From NCBI GenBank assembly GCA_022072445.1, contig JAJVHV010000010.1, forward strand, positions 1-64,000: a stretch of DNA of 64,000 nucleotides, in the 5' to 3' direction. Position numbers and translations under genes: made by a program. Below, in pieces: positions 7,451 through 60,356 of this stretch. A model generated the notes under the pieces. It did no database searches and had not been told where the DNA came from. It was given only the letters and a program-made list of their open reading frames with translations. Every line of letters starts with the position of its first letter. Within the stretch, counting starts at the first letter, position 1. The DNA comes from Phycisphaerae bacterium (lineage in GTDB: Bacteria > Planctomycetota > Phycisphaerae > UBA1845 > Fen-1342).

Positions 7451-7668
7451 GCGGCGGGGACGCCAGTGCGCCCTGGCGACGTGTATGACGCGGCACGCGT
7501 GTCCTGCCTCCGACCCCTCACTGGCGTGAGGGGTTCGGATCGGTCGACGTTCGTCGACCCCGTCGCCCCACCGTTCGTCGACCCGGATCGCCGTTCGTAC
7601 CCCGTCGCCCCACCGTTCGTCGACGCGGATCGCCGTTCGTCGACCCCGTCGCCGCACCCGTTCGTCGA
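7451..7668. repeat. repeat block with GTTCGTCGAC words and a CCCTCAC hairpin
   Basis: The 588-bp gap between convergent genes (7098-7685) has no supported CDS. Its right half contains the hairpin cccctcactggcgtgagggg (near 7514-7533) and then several copies of a unit around gttcgtcgacc and cgtcgccccaccgttcg. The stretch from cgccctggcgacgt to the hairpin recurs in direct orientation near 60219-60292, so this is a dispersed element. The left half (7098-7450) has no clear signal. Confidence 0.7.
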
Positions 7669-25884: not shown

Positions 25885-25887
25885 GGC

Positions 25888-26013
25888 AGGGTTCAGGGTT
25901 CGGGGTTCGCGGTTCGGGGTTCGCGGTTCAGGGTTCGGGGTTCAGGGTTCAGGGTTCAGGGTTCGGGGTTCGGGGTTCAGGGTTCGGGGTTCGGAGTTCA
26001 GGGTTCAGGGTTC
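25888..26013. repeat. GGGTTCAGGGTTCGGGGTTCG word run
   Basis: About 125 bp of a degenerate 7-mer family (gggttca, gggttcg, cggttcg), immediately after the subtilase stop and before a convergent gene. A shorter reverse-complement run is at 16259-16288. It is telomere-like only by coincidence of the word. Confidence 0.85.
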
Positions 26014-26032
26014 AGGAGATGGAGAGCAGCCG

Positions 26033-26359
26033 CCCCGGCTGCACTCCCTTTCGTCAGCGCCGAACGATGCACCCAACCGAGCCCCGACCGTCAGGGAGGG
26101 GTTCGGACGGCGGACGCCGACGTACTCGGCGAAAGTCGGCGCCCCGGCTGCACTCCCTTTCGTCAGCGCCGAACGATGCACCCAACCGAGCCCCGACCGT
26201 CAGGGAGGGGTTCGGACGGCGGACGCCGACGTACTCGGCGAAAGTCGGCGCCCCGGCTGCACTCCCTTTCGTCAGCGCCGAACGATGCACCCAACCGAGC
26301 CCCGACCGTCAGGGAGGGGTTCGGACGGCGGACGCCGACGTACTCGGCGAAAGTCGGCG
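26033..26359. repeat. three exact 109-bp tandem repeats
   Basis: Three near-perfect direct copies with a 109-bp period, each starting near ccccggctgcactcccttt. Each contains the planctomycete core cgagccccgaccgtcaggga followed by ggggttcggacggcgg. The repeat is open in several frames but has no ribosome binding site and is not a gene. Confidence 0.92.
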
Positions 26360-26399
26360 CGAAGTCCGAAGGCAAACAACGGATCGAGATTACGCGCTC

Positions 26400-36573: not shown

Positions 36574-37134
36574 GTGATCGACCGCGTGGCAAACCTGACG
36601 GATGAGGCATTGATGGTGCGGATCGCCGACGGCGACCGCGACGCATTTCGCTTGCTCTATGATCGGCACGCGGCGCGCCTGCACGGGCTGCTGTTGCGGC
36701 TGGTGGGCTGCCGGTCGGCGGCTGAAGACGTGTTGCAGGAGGCGTTCTGGCAGATCTGGTCGCAGGCGTCGCGATTCGACGCGTCGCGCGGGACGGCCAT
36801 CGTCTGGATCGTTCTGCTGGCGCGCTCGCGGGCGCATGACTACCGTCGGCGCCAGCGGCGTCAGCCGCCGCCGCCGGTGAGCCAGCCAGGCGCGTCGGAG
36901 CCCGGGAGCGAGGTTGTGGCGCGAGAGTGGGCGGGTCTGGTTTCGGCGGCGTTGGCGCAGCTTCCGGAGGAGCAGCGCAGCGCGATCCGGCTGGCGTTCT
37001 ACGATGGGATGTCGCACAGCGAGATCGCCGACGAGCAGTCGACACCGCTGGGGACCATCAAGACGCGAATCCGCAGCGGGATGCAGCGGCTCCGCGAGAT
37101 TGTCAAACCGCGTGACAGGGTGATGGCGCCATGA
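36574..37134 (+). CDS. ECF RNA polymerase sigma factor
   Basis: 186 residues from a GTG preceded by GAGG. Region 2 spans about 14-80 (DAFRLLYDRHAARLHGLLLR, EDVLQEAFWQIW); region 4 about 118-172 (LPEEQRSAIRLAFYDGMSHS with TPLGTIKTRIRSGMQRLRE as recognition helix). It belongs with the SigK/RpoE-like ECF groups whose anti-sigma factors carry zinc-binding domains. Its TGA overlaps the ATG of the anti-sigma gene (37131-37134), so the pair is coupled. The 256-bp gap upstream shows no repeat array. Confidence 0.94.
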   Translation: MIDRVANLTDEALMVRIADGDRDAFRLLYDRHAARLHGLLLRLVGCRSAAEDVLQEAFWQIWSQASRFDASRGTAIVWIVLLARSRAHDYRRRQRRQPPPPVSQPGASEPGSEVVAREWAGLVSAALAQLPEEQRSAIRLAFYDGMSHSEIADEQSTPLGTIKTRIRSGMQRLREIVKPRDRVMAP

Positions 37135-37754
37135 GTGAGATTGGACACACGATCGGCGAACCGGAAGAGCTCGCCGCGCTGTACGCTGCGGGCGCCATGA
37201 CGGGCGAGCACATGAGCGAATTCGAGAACCACGTTCGAGCTGGATGCGAGCGCTGCCGGTCGGAGCTGCGCAGGCTCGACCTGGCGATGGAGGAACTCTA
37301 CCGGGCGATCGAGCCGGTTCCGCCGCCGGCCGCCGTTCGCGAGGCGCTGCTGGCGCGTGTCGCGACGAAGCCGGGAGAGAGCGGCAATCCGCAAGTGTGG
37401 CGCGACTGGCCGAGCGACACGGCCGACGGGGGCATGCTCATCCGCCGCGCCGCCGAAGCCGCGTGGGAGCCGGTCGGGATCGAGGGCATCGCGATCCGGC
37501 GGTTGTTCGTCGACCGGCAGCGCGATCAGATGACGATGCTGGTGCGGATGGCGCCGGGCACGGCCTACCCGCGGCACGTGCACCACGGCCCGGAAGAGTG
37601 CCTCGTGCTGGAGGGCGACCTCCGCGTCGGCGACACCGTCCTGCGGGCCGGCGACTATCAGCGGGCCGCGCCGGACAGCCAGCACGGCGTTCAGAGCACC
37701 GAGGGCGGTTGCCTGCTGATGATCGTGTCGTCGCTCTCCGACGAGCTGATCTGA
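37131..37754 (+). CDS. ChrR-like zinc-binding anti-sigma factor with cupin domain
   Basis: 207 residues. The N-terminal anti-sigma domain has the zinc ligands His34, Cys39 and Cys42 (ENHVRAGCERC). The C-terminal half is a ChrR-type cupin: AYPRHVHHGPEECLVLEGDL with metal-binding His and Glu, then LRAGDYQRAAPDSQHGV. In this family the cupin or zinc site senses singlet oxygen, organic peroxide or a metal and frees the sigma factor. Coupling to the sigma gene supports the pairing. Its last 27 codons are repeated as a fragment at 39148-39228. Confidence 0.92.
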   Translation: MSEIGHTIGEPEELAALYAAGAMTGEHMSEFENHVRAGCERCRSELRRLDLAMEELYRAIEPVPPPAAVREALLARVATKPGESGNPQVWRDWPSDTADGGMLIRRAAEAAWEPVGIEGIAIRRLFVDRQRDQMTMLVRMAPGTAYPRHVHHGPEECLVLEGDLRVGDTVLRAGDYQRAAPDSQHGVQSTEGGCLLMIVSSLSDELI

Positions 37755-37791
37755 AACGTCGCTTCACCGCCGGCGGGCAGCGCCCGGGCCG
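37674..37791. repeat. left copy of a 118-bp direct repeat (gene-junction duplicate)
   Basis: Aligns without gaps to 39148-39265 (offset 1474 bp) at roughly 88% identity by eye. It covers the 3' end of the anti-sigma gene plus about 37 bp beyond. Read in reverse, it also encodes a remnant of the GH65 C-terminus (ARALPAGGEATFQ followed by SSSESDDTII). Confidence 0.85.
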
Positions 37792-38003
37792 GATGAGCGG
37801 CTGTGTGTCGAGCCAGCCGTGCACACGTCAAGCGCGCAGGCCGAAATAGGGACTTGACAGAACTTGGGGGGAGCGACTGTCTTGGGCGTCAAGGGGTTTC
37901 AAGGCGAGTTCTCCAAGCGGTCTTGGGCTGATCTGCCTGGTGTTGGAACCCGCAACCGCCTGAAATTGGAGCGAAGCGGCGGGCTCTGGTTTGGGAGTTT
38001 GAC

Positions 38004-39119
38004 ATGCTCGTGACCACCATCCTCTTGGCGATCCTCGCGCCAAACGGCGGTAGTGCGCCTTTGGAGCTTGAGGCGCGACATTGGTTCAACAACCCCGTGT
38101 TCCGACTGAACGACGACCGTCGCGTCTTCGTCGTGTGCTTCGATTGCGACAAGCCGGAATCTCGCTCCGCGCTGCGCAAGCTGAACCGGCTGGCACGGAA
38201 GCCCTCCGTCGTAGTAATTGGATTGACGCGGGACAAGCGCGAGGATTGCGAGCGTTTTATCCGTGCGAATCGCATCGCCTTCACCATCGGGGCCGAGAGC
38301 GAAACCGTACGGCAATTGAAGCCGCGTCGCCTGCCGGCGATCTACGAACTGGATCGCGCCCAACGCGAAAGCGAGCCGAATGAGATCGATAGTCTTGATC
38401 TGATCGTGCCGAACTGGGACGACATTGCGCGACAGCAGATCGAGCAGATGGAAGAGTGGGAGCTTCGAGCTTTTGTGGAAAGCGATGCGCTGGGTCTCAA
38501 TCGGTGCGTGGGTGTTGAGCGCCTCTGGGGACTCCTGGGCGCCGATCGCGCTGAAGAATTCGTGCAGTACCTGGACTCGCTCATCGAAACTGAGGAGCAC
38601 CCGTGGGTGCGCGGCCGCATGCGGCACCTCCAATGGGTCGCCAAGGGGCTGATTCCGTTACAGGACGCGCCGTCCGAGTCAACGGCCGCGTTTCTGGAAT
38701 TCCGGCAGAATCCGGACGCCGACGAGTGGCGTAAAGTGCGAGACTTCAAATCGCGCATGAGCGCGATGCCGGTGACAGAGCTGCTCGATACATATCGACG
38801 GAATGCCGGACCGGCGCGAGCCGGCGCCCTGATTCGACGACTCGTGACCGACCAGCTCAGCACCGCAGGCGACCGCGCCGCCGCCCGCACCGCGCTGCTC
38901 GAAATTGTCGCGGCCGACCCTGACCACTCCGTCAGGCTGCATGCCGCCGGCGGATTGGCACAGGTGTGCGAAGTCGGCGACACCGTGGTAGCGGATGTGC
39001 TCGAGTCGCTCGCTCAGAGCGAGCCGCACGTCAAGAACGTGCGACCCGCCATGGAATACGCCTCGCAGTATCTGCGAACTGGCGCCACCATCGACGAAGC
39101 GGCGGCCTCGAAGCCGTGA
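38004..39119 (+). CDS. exported thioredoxin-like protein with HEAT-like C-terminus
   Basis: 371 residues with a short hydrophobic signal-like N-terminus. Residues 18-125 resemble a TlpA/redoxin-type thioredoxin fold: WFNNPVFRLNDDRRVFVVCF, then KPSVVVIGLTRDKREDCERF, AFTIGAESETV and LPAIYELDRA. A possible redox pair is C-F-D-C (about residues 48-51). The helical C-terminal region (270-350) has HEAT-like repeats (LHAAGGLAQVCEVGDTVVAD). GGGAG lies 6 nt before the ATG. It is the only gene between two 118-bp direct repeats, so this segment may have been inserted. It is a stand-alone gene with no recognised partner. Confidence 0.78.
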   Translation: MLVTTILLAILAPNGGSAPLELEARHWFNNPVFRLNDDRRVFVVCFDCDKPESRSALRKLNRLARKPSVVVIGLTRDKREDCERFIRANRIAFTIGAESETVRQLKPRRLPAIYELDRAQRESEPNEIDSLDLIVPNWDDIARQQIEQMEEWELRAFVESDALGLNRCVGVERLWGLLGADRAEEFVQYLDSLIETEEHPWVRGRMRHLQWVAKGLIPLQDAPSESTAAFLEFRQNPDADEWRKVRDFKSRMSAMPVTELLDTYRRNAGPARAGALIRRLVTDQLSTAGDRAAARTALLEIVAADPDHSVRLHAAGGLAQVCEVGDTVVADVLESLAQSEPHVKNVRPAMEYASQYLRTGATIDEAAASKP

Positions 39120-39147
39120 GGCTCGCACAGCGGAGTCGCTGCTCGGT

Positions 39148-39228
39148 GACAGCCAGCACGGCGTTCAGAGCACCGACGGCGGCTGCCTGCTCATGATCGT
39201 CTCGTCGCTGTCGGACGAGCTGACCTGA
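39148..39228 (+). pseudogene. fragment of a ChrR-like anti-sigma factor gene (last 27 codons)
   Basis: Encodes DSQHGVQSTDGGCLLMIVSS and then LSDELT-stop, against DSQHGVQSTEGGCLLMIVSS and LSDELI-stop in the intact gene at 37131-37754. Most base differences are at synonymous third positions, so the two copies diverged under protein-level constraint. There is no start or upstream domain. It lies antisense over the 3' end of the GH65 gene. Confidence 0.75.
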
Positions 39229-39265
39229 AACACCGCTTCCGCGCCGGCGGGCAGCGCGCGGGCCG
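39148..39265. repeat. right copy of the 118-bp direct repeat
   Basis: Partner of 37674-37791. Here the reverse-strand reading is the true C-terminus of the GH65 gene, and the forward reading is a truncated anti-sigma gene. Confidence 0.85.
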
Positions 39266-41624
39266 CATCGCCGCAGGCGACGTCGACAGCCGCGGGCCCC
39301 GCGTTACGAACGACCAGCGACGCGTGCGTCAGCTCGATGCCTAATGCCGCGCCGCGCCAGCGGAGCGGAAAACGCACACATTTCCAAGTCCGCGGCAGAC
39401 GCGGTTCGATCCGCAATACGTCGCCGCTCGTCGCCGGCCGCACGCCCGCAAAGCCGAACACGACCATCTGCCAGATCGCGCCCGCGTTGGCGATGTGAAT
39501 CCCCTCGGCGGCGCCGCCCTGGGCCGCGTCCAGATCGATCGCGCAGGCCCGCAGCCAGAAGTCCCAGGCCTGCGGATGCAGGCCGAGCCGCGCCGCCAGG
39601 ATGGAGTGCACGCCGGCGGAGAGCGACGAATCGTGCGAGGTGAGCGGGAGGTAGTAGTTCCACGCGCGGCGCAGTTCGGCGGGGGTGAATTCATCGGGCA
39701 GCAGGAATGCCAGCATCAGCACGTCGGCCTGCTTGAGGCACTTGCCGCGGTAGAGGCGCTCCTGCGAGACCTGCGAAGCCAGCGTTCGCGAGCGATCCGG
39801 CCAGCAGCGCTCGAAGTCCAGATCGGCCAGCGCCTCGAACTCGTCGCATTGCAGCACCAGCAGCCCGTCGGCGGCGCGCGGGACGCGCATCGCCGCCGCC
39901 ACCGCCGCGAACGCCGCCCGCTCCTCGACCGTGGCGCCGCCCGCGCCGCCGTGCTGCTCGGCCAGCCGCAGGGCCAGGGCGACCATGCGGTTGGTGAAGG
40001 CGTTGTTGCTGCTGATGGGCGTGTACTCGTCGGGTCCCATGACTCCCAGCAGCACGGGCTTCAGCCTGTCCTGAAGGGCCGCCAGCGCGCCGCGGGCGTC
40101 GGGCGACGGCGGGGCGGCGCGGCGTAGTGTTTCGCACGGTGCCGCTGGCACCCAATCGATCCGCGCCAGCCAGTAGCGCGCGGTCTCGACCAGCACGCGC
40201 GCCGCGGGGCCGTCGAGAAACGCATCGTCGGCCGCGGCCCGGGCATAGTGGAACATCCCGAACGCCACGTCCGCCGTCACGTGCACTTCGTGATCGGCGT
40301 ATTGCCAGTTCGGGCAGCACTCATTGCCGTCAGCGTCGGACTCCCACGCATAGCGCGCGCCGGGATAGCCGTAGCGGCGGGCGTTGGTCCGCGCGCCGTC
40401 GAGCGTGCGGACGCGGAACTCGGCCAATTGCCGCGCCCGCGGCGGATCGGTGTAGGCGAAGAAGGGCAGCAGGTAGATTTCGGTATCCCAGAAGAAGCGG
40501 CCCCAATAGGCCTCGCCGGCGTAGCCCTTGGCATCGATCGCGACCCGCGCGTCGCACGGGTGCGCCCGCAGCAGGTGAAACAACGCGGCGCGGACGGCGC
40601 GCTGCGCGGCGTCGTCGCCTTCGATCCGCACGTCGCACGCATCCCAGCGCCGCCGCCAGACTTGCACGTGCTCTTCGAGCAGTTGCTCGAACGTCAGGGC
40701 GGCGGCGTCGTTGAGGGCGGAATGGGCGGCAGCGCGCGCTGCGGCGGCGCACTGCGCGGCGGCTCGGGCATCGTCGGCGGTTTCAGACGCGCCCGCCGCG
40801 CGGGCCGCGTGCTTGTGGCTTTCGGCGAGTTTTGTGTCGCGGCTGGAGGCGACGGCGCTGAGCTTTTCGACGACGAGCGGTTCGCCGGCGGCGACGTCGT
40901 AGCTCATGCGCCACTCGCCGCGGCGACGATCGACGACGGCCAGCGACTCGCGCGGCACAGGCCCGCGCAGCCGCGAGACGATGCTGACGCGGTCGCGGGC
41001 GTCGGTCTCGAGGTCGCAGCGCAGCGCGCCGGCCGACGGGGCGTCGAGCGCGACGCTCGCGAAGTGGTCGAATCCGTTGGTGCGCACGTCGGCATCGAGC
41101 TGGGCGCGGATTTCGACGTTCGCGCGGCGCGAGGGGATCATCGTGAGCCGCTGCACGCAGACGCACGGCCGCGCCGCCGAGATGAAGCGCTCGAACCGCA
41201 CCGCCACGCGCGTCGTGTCGGACACCTGCCAGGTCAACTCGCGTTCCAGCACGGCCGTATCCAGATGCAATGTGCGGCGGTAGTCGGCGGGCGGCGCCGC
41301 GGCGAGGTCGAGCGGCAGGCCGTCGATGCGCGGGGCGAGGCCGAGAAACGAGGGCAGATTGACGAGCTGGTTGTTGAGCGTGGGGTGCGGAGCGTAGAGG
41401 CCGACGACGTACGTGCCCCACTTCGAGCGCGGGTGTCGGAATTGCTCGCTGCTGACGTTGGCCGGGCGGCGCTCGTAGGATTCGTTCTGCGGCGCGCCGC
41501 TGAGATGCTCCTCCAGCGCGCCGCGCACGTGCAGATAGCCGCTGCCGAGCGTGAACAGCCCCTCATACGCCTTCAGATGTCTCAGGTCAAACGCCGCTTC
41601 GCTCAGCCGCCATGAGTCGGACAT
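39165..41624 (-). CDS. glycoside hydrolase family 65 (disaccharide phosphorylase-like)
   Basis: 819 residues. An N-terminal beta-sandwich (GLFTLGSGYLHVRGALEE, typical of GH65) is followed by an (alpha/alpha)6 barrel with GYAGEAYWGRFFWDTEIYLL. The general acid is Glu533 in GVMGPDEYTP. KQADVLML and the phosphate-site HDSSLSAGVHSI precede AAEGIHIANAGAIWQ. Most members phosphorolyse maltose, trehalose or kojibiose; some are hydrolases, and the exact sugar cannot be told. There is a helical Ala-rich insertion (about 285-330). The last 19 residues (after AEAVFQ) are read through DNA antisense to an anti-sigma gene fragment. Confidence 0.92.
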   Translation of the reverse strand: MSDSWRLSEAAFDLRHLKAYEGLFTLGSGYLHVRGALEEHLSGAPQNESYERRPANVSSEQFRHPRSKWGTYVVGLYAPHPTLNNQLVNLPSFLGLAPRIDGLPLDLAAAPPADYRRTLHLDTAVLERELTWQVSDTTRVAVRFERFISAARPCVCVQRLTMIPSRRANVEIRAQLDADVRTNGFDHFASVALDAPSAGALRCDLETDARDRVSIVSRLRGPVPRESLAVVDRRRGEWRMSYDVAAGEPLVVEKLSAVASSRDTKLAESHKHAARAAGASETADDARAAAQCAAAARAAAHSALNDAAALTFEQLLEEHVQVWRRRWDACDVRIEGDDAAQRAVRAALFHLLRAHPCDARVAIDAKGYAGEAYWGRFFWDTEIYLLPFFAYTDPPRARQLAEFRVRTLDGARTNARRYGYPGARYAWESDADGNECCPNWQYADHEVHVTADVAFGMFHYARAAADDAFLDGPAARVLVETARYWLARIDWVPAAPCETLRRAAPPSPDARGALAALQDRLKPVLLGVMGPDEYTPISSNNAFTNRMVALALRLAEQHGGAGGATVEERAAFAAVAAAMRVPRAADGLLVLQCDEFEALADLDFERCWPDRSRTLASQVSQERLYRGKCLKQADVLMLAFLLPDEFTPAELRRAWNYYLPLTSHDSSLSAGVHSILAARLGLHPQAWDFWLRACAIDLDAAQGGAAEGIHIANAGAIWQMVVFGFAGVRPATSGDVLRIEPRLPRTWKCVRFPLRWRGAALGIELTHASLVVRNAGPAAVDVACGDAARALPAGAEAVFQVSSSDSDETIMSRQPPSVL

Positions 41625-45387: not shown

Positions 45388-46350
45388 ACTGCGGTCGAGG
45401 GATCTCCGCGCGGGGCTAAGAAACCGCTCCCTTACGGTCGCGGCTCGGCTCGCGCGGCTCGGATCGCGCGGGCACGGAACCGAGCCGCGCGCGTCAGCAG
45501 GCGGTTTCTGAGTCGAGCCGGGGTGTGAGCCGCGGTCGAGGGATTCTCGCGCGGGCACGGAACCGAGCCGCGCGCGTCAGCAAGCGGTTTCTTAGTCGAG
45601 CCGGGGTGTGAACTGCGGTCGAAGAATCTCCGCGCGGGGCTAAGAAACCGCTCCCTTACGGTCGCGGCTCGGATCGCGCGGCGCGGATCGCGCGGCTCGG
45701 CTCGCGCGGCGCGGATCGCGCGGCGCGGCGCGGCTCGCGCGGGCACGGAACCGAGCCGCGCGCGTCAGCAAGCGGTTTCTGAGTCGAGCCGGGGTGTGAG
45801 CTGCGGTCGAGGGATTCTCGCGCGGGGCTAAGAAACCGCTCCCTTACGGTCGCGGCTCGGCTCGCGCGGCTCGGATCGCGCGGTCGCGGCTCGGATCGCG
45901 CGGGCACGGAACCGAGCCGCGCGCGTCAGCAAGCGGTTTCTTGGTCGAGCCGGGGTGTGAACTGCGGTCGAGGAATCTCCGCGCGGGGCTAAGAAACCGC
46001 TCTGAGCTGCGGTCGAGGGGTTCTCGCGCGGGGCTAAGAAACCGCTCCCTTACGGTCGCGGCTCGGATCGCGCGGCTCGGATCGCGCGGCGCGGATCGCG
46101 CGGCTCGGCTCGGATCGCGCGGGCACGGAACCGAGCCGCGCGCGTCAGCAAGCGGTTTCTGAGTCGAGCCGGGGTGTGAGCCGCGGTCGAGGGATTCTCG
46201 CGCGGGGCTAAGAAACCGCTGTGAGCTGCGGTCGAGGGGTTCTCGCGCGGGGCTAAGAAACCGCTCCCTTACGGTCGCGGCTCGGATCGCGCGGCTCGGA
46301 TCGCGCGGCGCGGATCGCGCGGCGCGGATCGGATCGCGCGGCGCGCCTCG
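45388..46350. repeat. ~1 kb modular repeat field with inverted-repeat modules
   Basis: Built from three modules in shuffled order. Module A is ggggctaagaaaccgctccc followed by ttacggtcgcggctcgg. Module B is variable runs of ggatcgcgcggc words. Module C is gggcacggaaccgagccgcg, gcgcgtcagcaagcggtttc, then gagccggggtgtgag and a link back to A. The 13-mer ctaagaaaccgct occurs about seven times (near 45416, 45641, 45829, 45989, 46034, 46208, 46252). Its near-exact reverse complement agcggtttct(tag) occurs five times, so the modules can pair. Long frames are repeat translations. Confidence 0.88.
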
Positions 46351-46427
46351 GATAAGATCAGCATCGCACGCAGGACGGCGTTGCGATGTCGGCTGCCCGC
46401 TGCACGAATCCCGCGGCCGGAAGCCAG

Positions 46428-57220: not shown

Positions 57221-57316
57221 CGGGAGTGGACTGGAATCGAACCAGCCAGAGGCTGCGGGTGCAACCTCTCGACGGTTTTGAAGACCGCGGGACCCACCAG
57301 GCGTCCGGACACTCCC
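57221..57316 (-). tRNA. selC: tRNA-Sec (UCA anticodon)
   Basis: A 96-nt reverse-strand tRNA with selenocysteine hallmarks: acceptor GGGAGTG pairing CACTCCC; extended D-arm closed by a 4-nt TGGT loop; anticodon arm GCGGT-CTTCAAA-ACCGT with UCA and the same loop as the E. coli tRNA-Sec; a long variable arm (agaggttgc-accc-gcagcctct); and T-arm GCTGG-TTCGATT-CCAGT. The eighth acceptor pair is a T/C mismatch and the D-stem has one bulged G. CCA is not encoded. It reads UGA as selenocysteine with SelB; no sel genes are in the window. Confidence 0.88.
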
Positions 57317-60179: not shown

Positions 60180-60356
60180 GAACCCCCGACGGCAGTCGGG
60201 GACCGCAACGGCGAGGACACCCCTTGCGCCCTGGCGACGTTCCTGACGCGGCACGCCCGCCCGGCCTCCGACCCCTCACTCGCGTGAGGGATTCGGATGT
60301 GTTGCCGCTCGTCGAATGGGTCGTCGTTGGTCGGACGGGTCGACGTTCGTCGGGCG
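60180..60356. repeat. dispersed repeat related to 7451-7560
   Basis: Shares cgccctggcgacgt, gacgcggcacgc, cctccgacccctcact and the CCCTCAC hairpin with 7470-7533 in direct orientation. It is followed by gtcgacgttcgtcg words as there. The rest of the 350-bp gap (60013-60362) has a short internal duplication (ctcgcgcgggccggtggggt) but no gene. Confidence 0.7.

Follow-up and report, generated by a model that had tools for sequence, protein, structure and literature searches.

Probable insertion of a single gene with a long, diverged target duplication at an anti-sigma/GH65 junction in a Phycisphaerae bacterium

The window analyzed here is a 64,000-nucleotide stretch of DNA from a Phycisphaerae bacterium, and positions given without a contig label refer to it. 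The locus of interest contains a sigma/anti-sigma gene pair, a GH65 gene on the opposite strand, a single gene between them (called X below), and two copies of a short sequence that bracket X. These features are the following.

36574..37134, plus strand: ECF-type sigma factor (Sigma70_r2/r4; PF04542 E=9e-15, PF04545 E=2e-13)
37131..37754, plus strand: intact ChrR-type anti-sigma/cupin gene whose final 81 bp fall within the left repeat copy (PF12973 E=3e-21)
37674..37794: left repeat copy, 121 bp, 89.3% identical to the right copy, with the functional anti-sigma 3' end and, on the minus strand at 37691-37794, a GH65 3'-end relic that runs to the same stop
37795..38003: insert sequence 5' of X, with no similarity to the GH65 3' region, the flanks of the X paralogue or the other insert end
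38004..39119, plus strand: middle gene X, 371 aa, with a signal-peptide-like start and a possible degenerate thioredoxin-like domain that lacks CXXC; its C-terminal half is HEAT-like (profile searches)
39120..39147: insert sequence 3' of X, 28 bp from the X stop to the right copy
39148..39268: right repeat copy, with an orphan anti-sigma 3' end (39148-39228) and the functional GH65 3' end (from alignment to the left copy)
39165..41624, minus strand: GH65 glycoside hydrolase (PF03632 E=5e-84)

Judged from its sequence, the product of 37131..37754 has the features of a ChrR-type anti-sigma factor, in which the ChrR cupin is joined to a predicted N-terminal zinc-binding anti-sigma domain; the motif H-x3-C-x2-C is present in this domain, and zf-HC2 gives only E=0.05. 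The C-terminal motif SSLSDEL is kept in most relatives, and the sigma factor sits upstream of the anti-sigma gene in relatives as well. On the other side of the locus, the last 19 codons of the GH65 gene are an extension that runs antisense to the anti-sigma 3' end. Most relatives' GH65 proteins stop near residue 800 and lack this extension.

Base-by-base alignment of 37674-37794 with 39148-39268 gives 121 ungapped positions, of which 108 are identical (13 differences, 89.3%; BLAST E ~3e-39). A preliminary description of this DNA had reported an ungapped repeat of 118 bp at about 88% identity; that shorter span contains 12 differences (89.8%), and the match extends to 121 bp. No third copy of the junction is found in the genome, where the sole other match is a 25-base GC-rich stretch on contig C4. 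As had also been proposed, the end of the anti-sigma gene in one direction and the end of the GH65 gene in the other are both found in both copies. The first 81 bp of each copy are anti-sigma sequence, comprising 26 codons and the stop. In the left copy they form the end of the intact anti-sigma gene. In the right copy these 26 codons and the stop are again in frame (first counted as 27 codons), with no gene body before them. Conversely, the GH65 gene is completed by the right copy. The minus strand of the left copy encodes ARALPAGGEATFQ, the proposed GH65 remnant, and goes on to encode the entire GH65 tail to the identical stop (ISSSESDDTIISRQPPSVL followed by the stop; VSSSDSDETIMSRQPPSVL followed by the stop in the right copy). 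The GH65 stop at 39165 lies 64 bp into the anti-sigma fragment, and the antisense overlap of the two genes is 64 bp in both copies. Because the same tail-to-tail overlap is present twice, the overlapping anti-sigma/GH65 junction predates the duplication.

The insert between the two copies is 1353 bp long and holds one complete gene, X, which is co-directional with the anti-sigma gene and is preceded by 249 bp of its own upstream sequence behind the sigma/anti-sigma pair. The thioredoxin-like label first given to X holds weakly: X alone matches AhpC-TSA at E=0.046 in profile searches, and four of the seven members of its family match AhpC-TSA (best 1e-4), but the family alignment contains no conserved cysteine pair of the CXXC type expected of a thioredoxin active site. 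HEAT_2 is matched by 6 of the 7. A thioredoxin-like fold is thus only suggested by these profile matches. The X family is present in several genera of the order, and a paralogue with 37% identity lies in the same genome at C3:159756-160838. The homologues in other genera are unlinked to anti-sigma or GH65 genes and have no flanking repeats like those at this locus.

Shuffled-alignment tests of the two insert ends, compared directly and inverted, give background scores without terminal repeats, and the same tests find no GH65 or anti-sigma homology in the insert flanks beyond the repeat. Neither a transposase nor an integrase is encoded in the insert, in which X, with only its weak thioredoxin-like and HEAT matches, is the sole ORF. 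Transposon ends are therefore rejected: direct and inverted comparisons gave background scores both for the insert ends and for the regions that flank homologues of X. An insertion sequence or transposon is likewise rejected because terminal inverted repeats are absent and the duplication is 121 bp rather than short.

Of the 13 differences between the copies, 7 lie in the anti-sigma frame, 6 of them at codon position 3, which amounts to 5 synonymous and 2 nonsynonymous changes and bears out the earlier statement that most differences are synonymous in this frame. Position 3 of each anti-sigma codon is paired with position 3 of a GH65 codon, and the codon pattern therefore does not count as separate evidence for the GH65 frame. 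The 40 bp that are GH65 only contain 6 differences at mixed codon positions, as would also be expected if the left GH65 relic were decaying freely. Tested alone against neutral decay, the 5:2 ratio gives P = 0.067, a value confounded by the constraint of the overlapping frame.

We scanned 2.36 Mb of the genome for low-copy pairs of at least 60 bp and at least 75% identity, spaced by 200-8000 bp, a scan that is blind to insertions that left no duplication. It returned 16 direct and 0 inverted pairs, several of which are repeats within genes. Two of the 16 share the anatomy of this locus: host gene and insert gene are both complete and co-directional, and the insert is followed by a fragment from the 3' end of the host gene. 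In one, on contig C8, two copies of the final 252 bp of lepA, 98.8% identical (3 differences, all synonymous), flank a toxin-antitoxin pair consisting of a PIN-domain toxin (PF01850, E=2e-11) and its likely antitoxin (L227:2283-3450, that is, C8 22283-23450). In the other, at C4:53835-55071, the last 354 bp of a gene and 66 bp beyond it are repeated (90%) around an 88-aa ORF, with 27 synonymous and 10 nonsynonymous differences (omega 0.10). A HicB-like gene follows the orphan lepA end on C8. Two further pairs, at C1 125996-127604 and C4 84684-86736, involve dockerin-type secreted-protein genes whose own 3' end is copied (98.5-99.5%) just upstream of the start. They look like recent partial tandem duplications and are not counted as the same kind, the orphan end being upstream of the same gene. 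A spacing of ~1475-1495 bp common to the pairs on C7, C1 and C4 (84684) was set aside as coincidence, since other pairs deviate from it. We also dropped the view that the repeat's longest stretch of identity always points to a crossover at its 5' edge; this holds for three in-genome pairs (29, 59, and 137 bp) and fails in two related genomes, G016 and G019.

The comparison drew on 114 genomes of the order, with no second genome of the same genus among them. When the order was searched with the last 97 residues of LepA, orphan lepA ends were found in 6 of the 103 lepA-positive genomes, representing six genera (this one and five others), whereas the same search with murA as a control gave 0/107. 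The orphan ends always lie on the same contig and strand as the intact lepA, 0.6-2.3 kb downstream; for G021, G101, and G060, the tally is from coordinates alone. In this respect lepA behaves as a hotspot. In G016, the copy is 201 bp long with 8 synonymous and 2 nonsynonymous differences, the insert is one 471-codon ORF, and the orphan end lies at L274:4194-4403. In G019 (L275), the differences are 4 synonymous to 1 nonsynonymous and the insert is a two-gene cassette, which looks like a toxin-antitoxin pair; its parts are without a strong Pfam match. A relative without the insert is seen at lepA in another genus of the family: G026, from the same genus as G016, has an empty site, where what follows the lepA stop matches what follows the orphan end in G016. 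The flanking lepA and murA genes of the two genomes are ~95% identical. When G016 is polarized by this sister, 7 states are shared with the intact copy vs 3 with the orphan, a difference that is not significant and whose direction is contrary to what simple uptake with displacement of the resident copy predicted.

An anti-sigma match is present in 19 of the 114 genomes besides this one. In the downstream flanks examined in family and order genomes, neither a GH65 gene nor an orphan anti-sigma end stands beside the anti-sigma gene, and no empty site is seen at this locus. Polarizing the differences at this locus was abandoned because the anti-sigma relatives are too distant, being about equally identical to the left and right copies.

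Across the five sequenced pairs, the differences pool to 48 synonymous and 14 nonsynonymous (omega 0.093). Under a test in which the intact copy is set at omega 0.1 and the orphan is neutral, the pooled P is 6.5e-11, and it stays at or below 7e-6 when any one pair is left out. An orphan decaying in place would gather amino acid changes freely, and the pooled omega of 0.09 is too constrained for that. The simplest reading of these substitution patterns is that divergence took place in two lineages, in each of which the copy was a functional gene end, and that the arrival of the insert would have brought the two together. The synonymous bias at this locus is by itself only suggestive and leans on the pooled result. 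The earlier statement that the copies are old or came from a related lineage is accordingly upheld by the five pairs together, but for this locus alone it reaches only P ~0.07.

We consider the locus to be probably an insertion with a long target duplication, one copy of which would have arrived with the insert from a related lineage with the same gene order. A segment of ~1.35 kb with the complete gene X would have been set directly behind the anti-sigma stop, co-directional with the anti-sigma gene, leaving 121 bp present on both sides. The copies would not have diverged in place; one of them would have come with the insert from that lineage. A plausible route is homology-anchored uptake, in which the shared gene end would pair through RecA-type recombination and the insert's far end would be joined illegitimately slightly upstream in the resident gene, so that the resident 3' end is left as the orphan. 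With an overlap of 64 bp, a simple insertion would truncate either the anti-sigma or the GH65 gene; the duplication is tolerated because, at a convergent overlap, it gives each gene a full end. The insertion is thus likely to have been neutral for both genes. A foreign copy further implies a donor with the same anti-sigma/GH65 junction, which is seen in no sampled relative. Of the two suggestions in the preliminary description, the better supported, and the best reading overall, is an insertion that involved recombination between homologous loci; targeting of the junction as such finds no support: the comparable cases share a host gene 3' end and a co-directional insert, not a tail-to-tail junction.

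Other routes to the same arrangement were weighed against this reading. If the event had taken place entirely on the spot, template switching or staggered-break fill-in would have inserted X and copied 121 resident bp, which later drifted to 11%. Such an account needs one event and no donor junction, it suits a genome in which spaced duplications are frequent, direct and never inverted, and the GH65-only part of the left copy indeed differs without codon bias. We nonetheless regard it as unlikely, in that the orphan anti-sigma fragment, though it has no gene body, differs mainly at synonymous sites, and neutral decay is rejected over the five pooled pairs (P 6.5e-11). At the icd gene, the prophage e14 and phage 21 supply a replacement 3' end and leave the old end as an orphan. 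There, as here, the target gene still has a full 3' end, in which the differences are mostly silent, and the old end lies at the far side of the insert; here, however, there is no integrase and the insert is only ~1.35 kb. A relic of a site-specific integrative element of this type, its integrase lost or acting in trans, would have exactly this outcome of an orphan 3' end and a synonymously altered replacement end, and lepA does act as a hotspot (6/103 vs 0/107). This origin nevertheless seems improbable to us: the sequenced inserts (0.4-1.6 kb) are without an integrase and unrelated to one another, the copies vary in length from 121 to 420 bp, and the target end is restored, yet a non-systematic comparison of the targets showed no common core.

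Two further explanations have still less in their favor. An old duplication of the whole anti-sigma/GH65 block, followed by loss of GH65 from the first copy and of sigma/anti-sigma from the second with X as intervening sequence, would account for both copies staying under selection while diverging (omega ~0.1), and tandem paralogues do exist in the genome, for example at C4:141420-144652. It is very unlikely all the same, for it requires, besides one duplication, two large deletions whose endpoints lie no more than 121 bp apart, there are no GH65 or anti-sigma remnants outside the repeats, and the empty lepA site is left unexplained. An assembly chimera, in which sequences of two co-occurring strains were merged, X following the anti-sigma gene in one strain and GH65 in the other, would likewise yield synonymous differences, and the genome resembles a scaffolded draft with a few N runs. 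We consider this very unlikely: there is no N at the locus, the insert genes are intact and, where sequenced, stop 0-52 bp short of the orphan copy, and the architecture recurs in independently assembled genomes.

Insertion with a long target duplication has been described for Helicobacter pylori restriction-modification genes (Nobusato et al. 2000), with variable duplications of the order of 100 bp, as cited in PMC1643837 and PMC3874152. The locus analyzed here resembles those cases in that a single gene or module is flanked by direct target copies of ~100 bp or more and no transposase is present: 121-bp direct copies flank the 1353-bp insert, which has neither a transposase nor terminal inverted repeats. 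Two other inserts described above are, or look like, toxin-antitoxin pairs, selfish modules comparable to the restriction-modification genes. Unlike in Helicobacter, the copies here differ by 1-11%, mainly synonymously, which suggests that one copy travelled with the insert; the targets here are gene 3' ends, and the insert at this locus is a secreted-type gene with possible thioredoxin-like and HEAT parts, not a restriction system. Homology-facilitated illegitimate recombination has been proposed for the T6SS effector arrays of Vibrio cholerae (PMC5361080). There too, a homologous stretch anchors the incoming DNA, the other end joins illegitimately, and an orphan, the older gene or 3' end, comes to lie downstream. 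At our locus, in contrast, the host gene stays functional with a duplicated end and there are no effector or immunity genes; both mechanisms are inferred.

The movement of small genes and toxin-antitoxin modules without a transposase is an old puzzle. What is new here is that the duplicate has diverged synonymously, that gene 3' ends are preferred, and that lepA is hit repeatedly. The duplicated ends record their own history, and their synonymous differences suggest that the duplicate came with the gene from a relative and was not made on the spot. We tentatively raise the possibility that this planctomycete order gains single genes and toxin-antitoxin cassettes in a transposase-free manner behind the stop codons of conserved genes, with lepA as a hotspot, each bringing a foreign copy of the 3' end and never breaking the host gene. 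With a recurrent site at lepA and an empty site in a sister genome, the process is directly testable by comparing close relatives.

The window contains other repeats and features. At 45389-46353 there is an array of ~190-220 bp units with the core GGGCTAAGAAACCGCTCCCTTACGG, which has 137 copies in the genome at 3 or fewer mismatches, spread over many contigs (0 for a control pattern), and belongs to a large dispersed intergenic repeat family. Tandem arrays at 1-550, 25887-26016, and 26031-26360 are made up, in that order, of 69/207-bp units, CAGGGTT heptamers, and three exact 109-bp copies. A 107-bp repeat pair at 7452-7557 and 60209-60315 is 82% identical over a distance of 53 kb, and a selenocysteine tRNA is predicted at 57221-57316 on the minus strand.
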